The notes under the pieces: model-generated | What the model was told of the DNA's origin: nothing | The model's input: the letters and a program-made list of their open reading frames with translations, nothing else | Databases searched by the model: none | NCBI GenBank assembly: GCA_020845775.1 | Contig: JADLFC010000167.1 | Location: 1-43,815 of the forward strand | Direction: 5' to 3' | From: Deltaproteobacteria bacterium | GTDB taxonomy: Bacteria > Bdellovibrionota_C > UBA2361 > SZUA-149 > JADLFC01 | Length of the DNA: 43,815 bases | Made by a program: the position numbers and the translations under genes | Shown: positions 34,919-40,003 of the stretch, one piece after another | How the letters are laid out: each line of letters begins with the position of its first letter | How positions within the stretch are numbered: the stretch's first letter is position 1

Positions 34919-35419
34919 ATGGCCATGGAAATAGAAAGAGCTACCTTAAGCGAGGCCAGAAATGGCTCTGGACTACTTTTTAACGCCGAAGCAGCAGCCC
35001 TCATTGGCCAATACGAGGACGAGCTATCTGCATATCGCGCACGAAAAAATTGGGTAGAAATACTTCACAGTTACTTTTTATTAGAAACTGGCCGCGATTA
35101 CAAAATGTCAATAGACTCGGCTGCATTAGAAACTCACCATCTGCTGATCTGCAACTTCTCTTCCGCCTGCGGTAGATACGCCCTTTGGCGACTCATGCAC
35201 GACCAAGCTCCGGAAGCAGAACAGCAACTAGTAAACGCTAGCGCAAGGCGAAAAAAAACGCAGCCTAGCACCAACTCAAAGCTACACAGCGTAACGAAAA
35301 AAGCAGCTCCAACTCCAGTTGTTATAAGCGGCACTCAGCTAAACTCGCTTTCTAACGCAAAACTAAAGAACAAAAACTCGTCCATACTCCTAAAATTTTT
35401 TAGGAAATTGACCACTTAA
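34919..35419 (+). CDS. Hypothetical protein, 166 aa
   Basis: Not recognised. An N-terminal helical domain of about 100 residues (EAAALIGQYEDELSAYRARKNW, SFFLLETGRDYK-like, SSACGRYALWRLM) is followed by a basic, Ser/Asn-rich low-complexity tail (about 105-160) and a short basic-hydrophobic end (SILLKFFRKL). There is no signal peptide. The start is ATG 34919 or ATG 34925; no clear ribosome site. It is convergent with the TlpA-like gene, 23 bp apart. Confidence 0.5.
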   Translation: MAMEIERATLSEARNGSGLLFNAEAAALIGQYEDELSAYRARKNWVEILHSYFLLETGRDYKMSIDSAALETHHLLICNFSSACGRYALWRLMHDQAPEAEQQLVNASARRKKTQPSTNSKLHSVTKKAAPTPVVISGTQLNSLSNAKLKNKNSSILLKFFRKLTT

Positions 35420-35442: not shown

Positions 35443-36039
35443 CTAAGGAGAGTCATCCTCAACCTGCCCTTTAAATAGCTCTGCGCCCAATTGTTCGCTA
35501 CTAGAAATGCCATCTAGCCGCCCAACAAATATCCCGGAACTGTCAAATAATAAAGCCGTTGGCAACTCGCGAATTCCAAGCAAATCGCGCACCCAAGTAG
35601 GACATAACAAGACTGTTAAATTAACTCCCAAACTAGCTACTTTCGCCGCCACCTTCTTGCCGTCACTTTCAAATAGATGAACACTAACAAAAGCTACGTC
35701 ATGACTGATAAACTTATCCCGCCAGGCATCAAACTCTCGAAGATGCTCCATGCAACTGCTGCAATATATTGACCAAAAATACAAGACTACCTTCTTATTC
35801 CTTATCTCAGTCGCGTTAAAAGCTTTATTGTCGAGGTAAGTAAATTGAAGCGCCGAAATATCATAAGCCTCCCCCATCCGCGGAGGCGATACTTTATACT
35901 CAACAATCAAATCATCGGCAAACGCTGACAGAGGCAAAAAAAAGCTGGCTAAAATAAAAATAAAAACATTCCTACATGCCAGAACGACGCATAGCATCAA
36001 CATTTTTGGGGAATGACTGACTCTATCCACCAACCTCAA
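35443..36039 (-). CDS. TlpA/ResA-like thioredoxin-fold protein, exported
   Basis: A periplasmic thiol protein, about 186-198 aa. A signal or anchor segment (about 19-41, ending LSAFADD) is followed by a thioredoxin-like domain with VVLYFWSIYCSSCMEHLREF (Cys93/Cys96), the CxxC redox motif, then FVSVHLFESDGKKVA and the cis-Pro loop ELPTALLFDSSGIFVG. It could reduce apocytochromes or other periplasmic disulfides. The start is uncertain: TTG 36039 or GTG 36030 (overlapping the cupredoxin-like gene, with GAGG just upstream) or ATG 36003 (no Shine-Dalgarno site). The overlap suggests coupled translation with the upstream gene. Confidence 0.82.
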   Translation of the reverse strand: MRLVDRVSHSPKMLMLCVVLACRNVFIFILASFFLPLSAFADDLIVEYKVSPPRMGEAYDISALQFTYLDNKAFNATEIRNKKVVLYFWSIYCSSCMEHLREFDAWRDKFISHDVAFVSVHLFESDGKKVAAKVASLGVNLTVLLCPTWVRDLLGIRELPTALLFDSSGIFVGRLDGISSSEQLGAELFKGQVEDDSP

Positions 36040-36592
36040 CCAAGCCCTTCATCGGGCTTAGAAGCGTTTTCCCATCCGCACTTTCCCCACTCTTCTCCAC
36101 TACGGCATCGCGCGGAAATATCACCACGTACTCGTATTTTCCCTTTTCGAGAAAACACAAGCTAGCAGCACTGCCGCTATTAAGCTCCTTAGACTCGTAA
36201 ATGCCCTTTCGCCCAATAATAAAGCCTAGAGGGGCCTTGCACGTAGTAGAAACTGCCCGCGATACAAACTTCACCTTTAAAGGGCTCGACGTGTCGTTTA
36301 CCCATATTACCGTAGTTCCAGGATTCACCAGAACTGCGGTCGGCGCAATTTCTATAGATCGTATTCTTACGTTGACATTTTGGCCAATTTCACCTCCATC
36401 GCCTTCTATGCTCGCAACCTCTCCCTCAGCAACCTTTGCTCCTTGAGACAAGCCAATATCCACCTTTTGCGCGGCTGGCTCTATCGCCTCAGCCAAGGGG
36501 ATAGCTATAAAACCAAGGCCTACTAAGACGAGTAAAAAGCCACAATTCATAAAATACTCATGTAAATAACTAACTCTCATAATATCCACCAT
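36023..36592 (-). CDS. Exported cupredoxin-like protein lacking the copper ligands
   Basis: 189 aa with an N-terminal signal segment (GFLLVLVGLGFIAIPLAEA). The domain VRIRSIEIAPTAVLVNPGTTVIWVNDTSSPLKVKF follows the start of plastocyanin/azurin-like folds (xPxxxxVxxGxxVxWxNxD), and GSAASLCFLEKGKYEYVV takes the place of the late copper-binding strand. However, the domain contains no histidine, so a normal type-1 copper site cannot form; only two Cys remain, which might form a disulfide. ATG 36592 is set by GGGGG 7 nt upstream; GTG 36625 is an upstream alternative. Its 3' end overlaps the TlpA-like gene, whose product could act on the Cys pair. Confidence 0.65.
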   Translation of the reverse strand: MVDIMRVSYLHEYFMNCGFLLVLVGLGFIAIPLAEAIEPAAQKVDIGLSQGAKVAEGEVASIEGDGGEIGQNVNVRIRSIEIAPTAVLVNPGTTVIWVNDTSSPLKVKFVSRAVSTTCKAPLGFIIGRKGIYESKELNSGSAASLCFLEKGKYEYVVIFPRDAVVEKSGESADGKTLLSPMKGLVEVGG

Positions 36593-36739
36593 GTTGTGAC
36601 CCCCTAGGCCTGACAATTTTGGCACACTATGCTACAAGAACAATCGAAAGGGCCATTTGAATAAAAAATTACGCCTAAACAATAATTCTTAGCACGTGGA
36701 CACATTCATAGGGAAAGCCTATTTTTCGGCGCACAAGAT

Positions 36740-36774: not shown

Positions 36775-37929
36775 ATGCAAGAGAATACAGAAGTAAGTCG
36801 GGCCATAGAAGCACTAAAAGCGGGAAAGCTTATAGTCGCAATCGACGACGCCAGTAAGCATATTAGCGGATATTTAGTGCTAGCTGCTGAGAAAGTTCTC
36901 AGCAGGGACATATGCTTCATGGTCAATTTTGGTCGCGGAGTTATATCTGCTGCTATAACTGAGGAGCGATTAGCTGATTTAGGACTTCACATGATGACTC
37001 CCGCAAAGGCAAACTCGGCTCCAGACTTTTTTGTAAGCGTCGATGCTCGCAATAACGTCACAACTGGAATTAGCGCTTCCGATCGAGCAGCGACTTTACA
37101 AGCCCTAGCCACCACCGCTCACCCCAAGCTAGACTTAGTCATGCCTGGTCACATCTTTCCACTACGCGCAAACAATGGTGGAGTTTTAGTAAACAGTGGA
37201 ATTGCAGAGGCGAGCACAGATCTCCTAAAACTTGCTAATTTGGTTCCGGTTGCAGCTATTTGCCACTGCTTAAATAAGGATGGCGATTTTGCAAGCTACG
37301 AGGAACTACTTGAACTAGCTGATGTTAACGACCTCAGAACCGTTGGAATATCGGATATAATTAAACACAAACTCGCTACGGAAAACATTATCGAGAAAAT
37401 AGCCGACACTCGTATACCGTTAAAACAACACGGCACTTTTCGCGCAGTCGTCTTTCGCTCCAAGAGCGATGACAGTGAGCATCTTGCACTCATAAAAGGA
37501 GACATCGGCGAACTTGCTTCGGACGGAACGAGCCGAGCTGTGTTAGTCAGAGTTCAAGCTGAGCATAGGATTGGGGATCTTTTGGGAATTGACAATGCCA
37601 ACACTAGAGATTCAATTCACAGCGCGCTTAGCACTATTAGCGAGGCCGGATGCGGCGTATTGGTTTACATTCGGCATCCCAAGAAGGGAGTTTTGCAGGC
37701 ACAGGTGGAGGCACTTGCAAGAAAAAGCGCTTTTACGCCGACTAAGAGCCGCGAACTAAGAGAAACCGGGATAGGCTTTCAAATTCTCTCGGCACTTGGA
37801 ATCCGTCGCATTAAACTGCTTACCAATAGCAGTCAGGAGTTAGCGGGGATTAAGGCATTTTCCGTGGAGATCGTCGATAGGCTACCGCTAAAACCGCAAG
37901 AGTCTATTTCACAGGAGAAGGTTTGCTAG
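36775..37929 (+). CDS. RibBA-like two-domain protein, both active sites degenerate (pseudoenzyme)
   Basis: 384 aa with the layout of bifunctional RibBA: a DHBP synthase-like domain (about 1-200) and a GTP cyclohydrolase II-like domain (about 210-372). The fold motifs remain: AGKLIVAIDD, FGRGVIS, VTTGISASDRAAT, MPGHIFPLRANNGGVLV, then KGDI, VRVQAEHRIGDLL, GIGFQILSALGIRRIKLLTN and VEIVDRLPL. The catalytic parts do not. DDEDRENEGD of active enzymes is DDASKHISGY (residues 24-33), GHTEA is GIAEA and CExxN is CHCLN, so the metal ligands are lost. In the second domain SEC...RCDC is AEH...NANT, which loses all three zinc cysteines, and the QEGRxIG loop is HPKKGVL. It is probably a binding or regulatory protein, not a riboflavin enzyme. 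AAGG 8 nt before ATG 36775. It shares an operon with the HD gene. Confidence 0.88.
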   Translation: MQENTEVSRAIEALKAGKLIVAIDDASKHISGYLVLAAEKVLSRDICFMVNFGRGVISAAITEERLADLGLHMMTPAKANSAPDFFVSVDARNNVTTGISASDRAATLQALATTAHPKLDLVMPGHIFPLRANNGGVLVNSGIAEASTDLLKLANLVPVAAICHCLNKDGDFASYEELLELADVNDLRTVGISDIIKHKLATENIIEKIADTRIPLKQHGTFRAVVFRSKSDDSEHLALIKGDIGELASDGTSRAVLVRVQAEHRIGDLLGIDNANTRDSIHSALSTISEAGCGVLVYIRHPKKGVLQAQVEALARKSAFTPTKSRELRETGIGFQILSALGIRRIKLLTNSSQELAGIKAFSVEIVDRLPLKPQESISQEKVC

Positions 37930-37930
37930 A

Positions 37931-39334
37931 ATGGACGATGCCGCATGGCCAGATAATGTTCACGCTGCTGGCAAAGGCAACTCTTCGTCGACGGTTAGTT
38001 TTGCCGACGTTGCGCATCAAACCTTAATTTTCGATTCTGCCGACATTGTAGGAAATCTCGTTTTAAGATTAGTTGAAACGCGTTGGATGCAGCGTCTTCG
38101 CCACATACGGCAGACCGGTAACACGAATTTAGTGTACATGTATTCCGAACATTCGCGTTTCGGACACAGTTTAGGCGTTGCCTATCTCTCTATGTTGCTG
38201 ATGGATCGCTTGCTAAAAATCAGTCCCGAAATGGTTATGCCATATAGAGACGCCGTTGCATGTGCGGCCATACTCCACGATGTTGGACACGTAGCTCCAG
38301 GTTCTCACGTTGCAGCAAAATTGTGGGGCCGCGATACCGCTGACGATCACGAAGGCATTAGCGTTAGAGTTATTAAGGAGGATGCCGAAATTAGCAGGAT
38401 ATTAAAATCTGCGCGCAAGGAATTGCCAGATTTGGTCTCGCGAATATTGCTTGACGACAGCTCTCTACCGCCCTGGACTAAATCAATAATATCAGGGGCT
38501 GGCTGGAATGCCGATAGAGGAAATTGGACCATCGTCGACAGCGCAATGTGTAGCGTTAGCTATGGACGCTACAACGTGCTGGCATTAATTGACGCTTTTA
38601 GCTTGTCTCCAGATGGACATTTGGTCATTCAAGAAAATAGGCTAGACGCTCTCACTCACTTCTTCGTCGCTAGGGAATCAATGTACCGTCAGGTATATCA
38701 ACACAGAGTCCTTCAATCGGCGGATGCTTTAATGTTTAGCCTGATTAGGAGACTTCGCGATCTCGTAGTCGTCTCTACTAAACCATACTCAGGTAATCCT
38801 TCGCCGAGAAATGCTTTAGAAGACTTAGGCATTTTTTGCGATGACGTCATGTTTAGTGCCATAACTACTAACAATTACGCCCATCAGCTTCCGCTTGAAA
38901 CCATATTTAAAATGACTGAAGGTTGGTGGAGCTATCACACTGAAAGCTGGTGCGAATGCAAAGACCACATACTAAGAGACCTCGCTATTCGCTTGCGCGA
39001 TAGACAGCTTTTTAAAACCATTAGACTAGATTTGGATAAGTCTGCGCCATGCGCGCCTGGCGAGTGCAGCGAGCATCCATTGCTAGTCCGAGCCCGAGAA
39101 ATAGCTAGTAATCTTGGACTTGACCCAACGTATTACGTCCTTAGCATCCAGAGAGCCGACTCACATAAGGAGCCGAGCGAGCAAGCGCCACTAGTCATTC
39201 TCGACAACAACTCAATAGTTTCAGCCGCTCAAGTCGAGCCACTCATTAACCACTTGTGCACCAAGAGGGAAAACCCAAAAAGGTGGATGGCGGTACCAAA
39301 AATAGTTAAAGAAAAACTGGGACGAATCCGATAA
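37931..39334 (+). CDS. SAMHD1-like HD-domain phosphohydrolase
   Basis: 467 aa. The HD metal site is H79 (SRFGHSLGV), H116-D117 (AAILHDVGH) and D195 (NADRGNW), with HE at 140-141. The early WMQRLRHIRQTGNTNLVY matches the QRLrxIxQLG entry of SAMHD1/dGTPase-type enzymes, and the C-terminus (IVSAAQVEPLINHL, ending in a basic helix) matches the tail domain of that group. Such enzymes hydrolyse dNTPs to deoxynucleoside and triphosphate; here the substrate is only inferred. The D195 region reads NADRGNWTIVDS where the family has DxDRxDYxxRDS, so substrate specificity may differ. ATG 37931 is one base after the RibBA-like stop, so the two are almost certainly cotranslated. Confidence 0.88.
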   Translation: MDDAAWPDNVHAAGKGNSSSTVSFADVAHQTLIFDSADIVGNLVLRLVETRWMQRLRHIRQTGNTNLVYMYSEHSRFGHSLGVAYLSMLLMDRLLKISPEMVMPYRDAVACAAILHDVGHVAPGSHVAAKLWGRDTADDHEGISVRVIKEDAEISRILKSARKELPDLVSRILLDDSSLPPWTKSIISGAGWNADRGNWTIVDSAMCSVSYGRYNVLALIDAFSLSPDGHLVIQENRLDALTHFFVARESMYRQVYQHRVLQSADALMFSLIRRLRDLVVVSTKPYSGNPSPRNALEDLGIFCDDVMFSAITTNNYAHQLPLETIFKMTEGWWSYHTESWCECKDHILRDLAIRLRDRQLFKTIRLDLDKSAPCAPGECSEHPLLVRAREIASNLGLDPTYYVLSIQRADSHKEPSEQAPLVILDNNSIVSAAQVEPLINHLCTKRENPKRWMAVPKIVKEKLGRIR

Positions 39335-39673: not shown

Positions 39674-40003
39674 GTGAAACATCTAGTGATCAAAAGACTA
39701 TTTGATTCTCTAAATGACCTTGAGCAAGCGATTGAGTCTGCGCGAGTTTCTCTGCGGGCTAAGCACGAACCGCCTGTTGAACTCCTTAGCAGAATTGACT
39801 CATATGAGGAAATTTTAAGAAAGCAGCGCACGTTGGGGAATGATCTTTGTAAGCATTTTACCTTGGAAAACTGGCAGGAAGTAAGTAGGCATGTTCAGCT
39901 AATTAATGGGCTTTCAGGCATGATTCGCGATGATGCTCGCGAGATACTATTTAACTTGCGGTCTCCCTCTGGCGAAAGGGAAAAGGAGCTCATGTTGTCG
40001 TAA
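39674..40003 (+). CDS. Hypothetical helical protein, 109 aa
   Basis: GTG 39674 is fixed by AAGGAG 8 nt upstream, one of the best ribosome sites in the window. The product is soluble, all-helical and hydrophilic: VIKRLFDSLNDLEQAIESAR, LLSRIDSYEEILRKQR, LENWQEVSRHVQLINGLSGM. The plan of two or three long helices with a lysine-rich middle recalls small type III or flagellar chaperones (FlgN/FliT size), but I see no diagnostic motif. It lies 6 bp upstream of gspK-like, so the two are probably cotranscribed. Confidence 0.6.
   Translation: MKHLVIKRLFDSLNDLEQAIESARVSLRAKHEPPVELLSRIDSYEEILRKQRTLGNDLCKHFTLENWQEVSRHVQLINGLSGMIRDDAREILFNLRSPSGEREKELMLS

Follow-up and report, generated by a model that had tools for sequence, protein, structure and literature searches.

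Gene content of the locus

The sequence analyzed here (the window) is a stretch of 43,815 nucleotides from one contig of a Deltaproteobacteria bacterium. On its forward strand two open reading frames follow each other with a single base between them. The first (positions 36775-37929) codes for a RibBA-like protein of 384 amino acids, a pseudo-RibBA that we will call the window protein, and the second (37931-39334) for a SAMHD1-like HD phosphohydrolase of 467 amino acids whose first ATG is located one base past the upstream stop. A Shine-Dalgarno-like sequence for the HD gene, AGGAGAAGG, can be read on the same strand within the end of the RibBA-like gene (37913-37921). The two-gene operon of the preliminary description is borne out by this arrangement.

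Genes of a housekeeping kind (thioredoxin, T2SS, ABC transporter, heme A synthase-like) surround the pair, and a search of its vicinity for an FMN riboswitch or another known RNA found one tRNA only. Upstream of the operon there is a divergent pair on the reverse strand (35443-36625) coding for exported proteins, one thioredoxin-like and the other weakly cupredoxin-like, which occur in the genomes G009 and G012 too. Two short proteins without Pfam match (34919-35419 and 39674-40003, clusters c8 and c14) recur beside the pair in the order to which the window belongs. At 24 loci outside this order, a divergently transcribed gene for a protein of 150-170 amino acids, equally without Pfam match, is found upstream of the pair (cluster c2, L081:7805-8314 and relatives).

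The window protein has Pfam matches to DHBP_synthase (E=2.8e-55) and GTP_cyclohydro2 (E=6.9e-35). It consists of a DHBPS domain at residues 9-197 and a degenerate GCHII domain at residues 208-371. The AlphaFold2 model (pLDDT 91) found its top Foldseek matches in the bifunctional RibBA 4i14 and in RibBX 6mnz. Against NCBIfam, the window protein scored well under the cut-offs for the RibBA equivalog (298 versus 569 bits) and for the ribA domain (60 versus 206).

The HD protein carries the Pfam domains HD and HD_assoc_2. Its metal ligands H79 (38165-38167), H116-D117 (38276-38281) and D195 (38513-38515), all coded on the forward strand, are invariant in 29 orthologues, and the SAMHD1-like protein with an intact metal site described before is confirmed. 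The nearest solved relatives are EF1143 (2o6i), BT4208 (2q14), the Aquifex protein 2hek and SAMHD1. The AlphaFold2 model (pLDDT 87) matched best EF1143 with dGTP (4lrl, 3irh), with E=1.7e-20 and a TM-score of 0.77 for 4lrl. In our own alignment the conserved residues H120, H126, H140, R248 and Y256 coincide with catalytic residues of SAMHD1. Since both the metal ligands and these positions are kept, the protein is probably a dNTP triphosphohydrolase, a putative assignment that extends to its substrate. SAMHD1 relatives have guanine-nucleotide allosteric sites. When we aligned the motifs of the guanine site of SAMHD1, D137, Q142 and R145 fell on E49, Q54 and R57 of the HD protein; Q54 and R57 are invariant in the 29 orthologues and the position of E49 is occupied by D or N in most relatives. 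The enzyme would likely be of the EF1143/SAMHD1 type and activated by guanine nucleotides. It shares with these proteins (PDB 4lrl, 3irh, 4bzb) the fold, the HD metal site and the residues at catalytic positions, but the identity is 23%, and invariant Trp199 and Thr62 are found in the window HD family where SAMHD1 has Tyr315 and Leu150. One genus (G018, G021, G026, G030-G032, G035, G039 and G041) has a second and remoter HD paralogue, with 32-39% identity to the window HD protein and no RibBA adjoining.

The preliminary description had proposed a survey of the co-occurrence of both families, and we have searched 97 relatives, 46 of them from the same class (own genome included). An HD orthologue with 43-64% identity was found intact or nearly so in 40 same-class genomes, and as a fragment in G013. 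In all the same-class genomes that carry the RibBA-like gene (36 of 36), the HD gene is the next one on the same strand, and most commonly the two genes overlap by 4 bases (15 of 35 cases measured in relatives). The genes flanking the pair are wholly different between the order of the window and the rest of the class, so the adjacency of the pair has outlived all its other neighbours. This adjacency is far beyond chance. Scanning 84,980 species genomes, we retrieved 36 loci with 40-64% identity to the HD protein, which correspond to the class and come from MAGs labelled as deltaproteobacteria, Oligoflexia, Bdellovibrionales, Dadabacteria or just bacterium. Below them the identity drops to 37% or less (Staphylococcus, Lactobacillus and others).

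Residues kept and lost in the two RibBA paralogues

The active site of DHBPS is located at the interface of a homodimer. In the Vibrio cholerae enzyme loops 1-3 come from one subunit and loops 4-5, which form the lid, from its neighbour (PMC5228156). In simulations of the same enzyme the entry of Mg was governed by two residues of monomer B, Thr108' and Asp114', and in silico changes at D114, the equivalent of D113, blocked it (PMC5228156). DHBPS residues are given here in E. coli RibB numbers unless stated; the E. coli RibB sequence served only as the ruler for this numbering, and the residue identities were read from the loci themselves.

In the window protein the acidic loop 1 (36844-36873) reads DDASKHISGY in place of DDxxRENEGD, with which the active-site residues acting within the same subunit are gone (subunit assignment from PMC5228156). 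Only 0-1 of the 36 orthologues keep R37, E38 and D42. The segment from R150 to T154 is also degenerate (residues 140-144, NSGIA, 37192-37206): the R150, H153 and T154 positions are lost, the latter two, which belong to the metal and phosphate site, being I143 and A144, and T154 is kept in 1 of the 36. M182 and R184 are missing in the family as well. At the zinc motif of the GCHII half (residues 264-277, 37564-37605), C54, C65 and C67 are replaced by H264, A275 and T277; no zinc cysteine was seen among the residues listed for the 36 orthologues, and E92, R94 and the catalytic Y105, D126 and K154 are not kept either.

On the other hand, the part contributed to the active site of the adjoining DHBPS subunit is retained. 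Loop 4 and the following positions (residues 94-104, NVTTGISASDR region, 37054-37086) include T97, S100, D103 and R104, which correspond to T107, S110, D113 and R114. Loop 5 (residues 122-129, VMPGHIFP, 37138-37161) includes H126, which corresponds to H136. All these segments are coded, like the degenerate ones, on the forward strand. D113, R114 and H136 are present in 36 of 36 orthologues; S110 is found in all and T107 in 94%. With a mean identity of 41% across the family, D103, H126, E145, R104 and other positions of the window protein are invariant and strongly constrained. The term pseudoenzyme used in the preliminary description holds for each half singly, catalytic residues being lost in both, but the DHBPS half retains exactly what a subunit lends to the active site of its neighbour.

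The genome from which the window comes has a second RibBA (G000:C28:15608-16924, in a stretch with ribD), which we will call the class-type RibBA. It also has lumazine synthase, and a third gene of the DHBPS family was not found in it. With ribD and lumazine synthase present, DHBP must come from these two RibBA proteins or by some other route. The class-type RibBA was detected in 36 of the 36 genomes with the window family (in G003 and G043 as pieces at contig edges). In the tree the window family and the class-type RibBA form one group of 36 each, both with a support of 100/100. The divergences of the two paralogues correlate (Spearman 0.86), and both correlate also with that of the HD protein, as vertical inheritance predicts.

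By its acidic loop and zinc motif the class-type RibBA would pass for a normal enzyme, a reading that D113 and H136 contradict. It retains R37, E38, E40, D42, R150, T154, E174 and every GCHII residue checked, together with loops 1 and 3 and most of loop 2. Of 37 sequences, 36 have G, A, S or V in place of D113. T107 persists in 8% and S110 in 17%; H136 is found in 17 of the 37, and in the window's own genome its position is occupied by Y. Loop 4 is partly conserved (GVTA..R), with R114 and the PG of loop 5 invariant. As a reference, D113 and H136 were intact in 19 of 19 RibBAs from other phyla.

To compare both paralogues we used the DHBPS columns that are conserved in other phyla and differ clearly between the two. 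Along loops 1-3 and the R150-T154 segment, 18 of 19 columns were kept in the class-type RibBA, and along loops 4-5 the window family kept seven of seven. The distribution of the monomer-A set (18:1) versus the monomer-B set (0:7) gives a Fisher p of 1.2e-5, a value that is indicative only because neither the columns nor the rows of related proteins are independent. The single exception was M83 in loop 2, kept by the window family and replaced by Q in all the class-type RibBAs. The split between the paralogues follows the published subunit border of the DHBPS site, which was assigned independently of our data.

Four genomes of the class (G002, G008, G029 and G042) have the HD gene without an adjoining member of the window family, and the same four are devoid of the class-type RibBA. 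G008 and G042 carry a RibBA of foreign type, with both residue sets complete, that clusters outside the class group. In G029 there is a stand-alone RibB with both residue sets, plus a RibBA with a dead DHBPS half and an intact GCHII half. The latter is at L103 (G029:C108) and the RibB at L104 (G029:C37), by a lumazine synthase match, and this combination looks like a different answer to the same requirement. In G002 (92% complete) we found no RibBA, RibA, RibB, RibD or lumazine synthase, and it is an apparent riboflavin auxotroph that retains the HD gene. The window gene is therefore missing in precisely those genomes that have no class-type RibBA, and the HD gene persists in them. A calculation by hand puts the chance of this 36-versus-4 split at 1 in 91,390 under the assumption of independent genomes, an assumption that does not hold. 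In G013 and G039, which carry the class-type RibBA, no window gene was detected; their assemblies reach 79-84% completeness in 680-800 contigs, and the HD gene of G013 is cut at a contig end.

A probable composite DHBP synthase and its alternatives

Having lost opposite halves of one site, the paralogues are probably functional only when paired with each other. From the residue patterns and the co-occurrence we consider it likely that a single composite site is formed in an obligate heterodimeric DHBP synthase, of which the window protein would be the second catalytic subunit. The class-type RibBA would supply the metal- and substrate-binding loops 1-3, R150, T154, E174 and a working GCHII domain, and the window protein, with a GCHII domain that appears dead, would supply the lid loops 4-5 with T107, S110, D113 and H136. 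Only the mixed dimer would have a complete DHBPS site, its other site being deprived of key residues from both sides. Several observations speak against this reading. The class-type loop 4 is not random (the GVTA..R pattern, R114 and the PG pair mentioned above), so that a homodimer with altered residues could still work. Besides, H136 persists in nearly half of the class-type sequences, M83 contradicts its loop assignment, and correlated divergence is also expected from common descent.

The first of these points would fit a different role, in which the class-type homodimer makes DHBP with an altered lid and the window protein is its non-catalytic regulator or stabiliser. The presence of the window protein does track the class-type RibBA, as this would predict, and the partial conservation of loop 4 is in its favor. 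However, the residues kept by the window protein are the catalytic lid residues that are lent to the neighbour, and exactly those that the class-type RibBA has lost; a mere regulator has no need of D113, S110, T107 and H136. We regard this alternative as unlikely.

The preliminary description had proposed that the window protein senses a guanine nucleotide or a flavin precursor and controls the HD hydrolase. The strict gene order, the frequent 4-base overlap and the guanine-nucleotide sites of SAMHD1 relatives would agree with such a sensor, but the pattern of losses does not. The four genomes cited retain the HD gene in the absence of the window protein, which argues that the HD protein works without it, and the RibBA-like gene co-occurs with the class-type RibBA in 36 of 36 cases. 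The substrate and zinc residues of GCHII are lost, and what has been conserved are lid loops of DHBPS rather than a GTP pocket. Neither was any RibBA found near distant HD relatives of other phyla in 44 loci. We give the sensor little credit. The GCHII half alone was also considered as a GTP sensor and rejected, because the zinc residues and most of the GTP residues are gone. The HD protein is probably independent of the window protein, a putative dNTPase retained in the operon; under the composite-enzyme reading it would be translationally coupled to the window gene and functionally independent of the RibBA pair. It is conceivable, if quite improbable, that the second site of the heterodimer is an allosteric pocket and that the dimer docks the co-translated HD dNTPase, by which the supply of riboflavin precursor and the dNTP pool would be physically coupled.

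The operon could also be accounted for if the HD protein were a phosphatase of the riboflavin pathway, for example the one that dephosphorylates ArPP. The enzyme for this step is not a single known family (PMC10366380), and the HD gene shares its operon with what would be a subunit of the pathway. Nevertheless, the residues and the fold of the HD protein match dNTP triphosphohydrolases, and this role is disfavoured because the HD gene is kept in G002, where none of the riboflavin genes tested was found (RibBA, RibD and lumazine synthase among them). We judge it very unlikely.

Some bacterial dNTPases function in defence. A defence module, in which an inactive RibBA would control a nucleotide-depleting HD effector, had been suggested too, and it appears extremely improbable: the PADLOC dGTPase match is weak and sub-threshold (E=0.0056 over 48 residues), the neighbours are housekeeping-like, and almost all genomes of the class have the pair, which has descended vertically alongside the native RibBA and is neither patchy nor mobile. 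The function was rejected on this class-wide distribution and the sub-threshold match.

Relation to described enzymes

Heteromers derived from duplicated homomers are a known evolutionary outcome, and the composite enzyme would be a further case of it in an essential pathway. Throughout a class of uncultured bacteria, an enzyme that starts vitamin B2 synthesis, and is a homodimer in the described structures, appears to have become obligately heterodimeric. The route would be the complementary loss of halves of the active site, providing a natural and deeply sampled case of the passage from homomer to heteromer at a site located on an interface. Looking in the literature for RibBX, for a heterodimeric DHBP synthase and for an HD partner, with limited coverage of subscription journals, we found no description of a split DHBP synthase.

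The window protein has the fold and domain order of the bifunctional RibBA (RibA2, Rv1415, PDB 4i14), with 34% identity over 4i14. In that protein and in homodimeric RibB (1g57, 4p77) each subunit has the donor loops and the lid, whereas here the two sets are divided between two proteins. RibBX of Acinetobacter baumannii (PDB 6mnz), the best match by TM-score (0.78/0.89), is like the window protein a DHBPS fused to a degenerate GCHII-like domain, but it keeps the acidic loop (DDEDRENEGD) that is lost in the window protein. Arabidopsis RIBA2 and RIBA3 are likewise RibBA paralogues without bifunctionality. There, as far as the parts of that report consulted go, whole functions are lost per protein and a single DHBPS site shared by paralogues is not described (PMC3509567). 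Two paralogues also replace a homodimer in the alpha1/alpha2 subunits of Francisella RNA polymerase, although this is another enzyme and no metal-dependent active site is split there (PMC3294249).

For annotation, calls of pseudoenzyme made on a single chain can mislead where sites span chains, and the composite-enzyme reading would assign a definite function to an apparently dead gene. Annotating the class-type RibBA as an ordinary self-sufficient RibBA may be wrong as well. Besides, proteins of about 540-600 amino acids with two tandem GCHII domains, separate from RibBA, were observed in several class members (G021:C100, G028:C100 and C8, and G022:C109).
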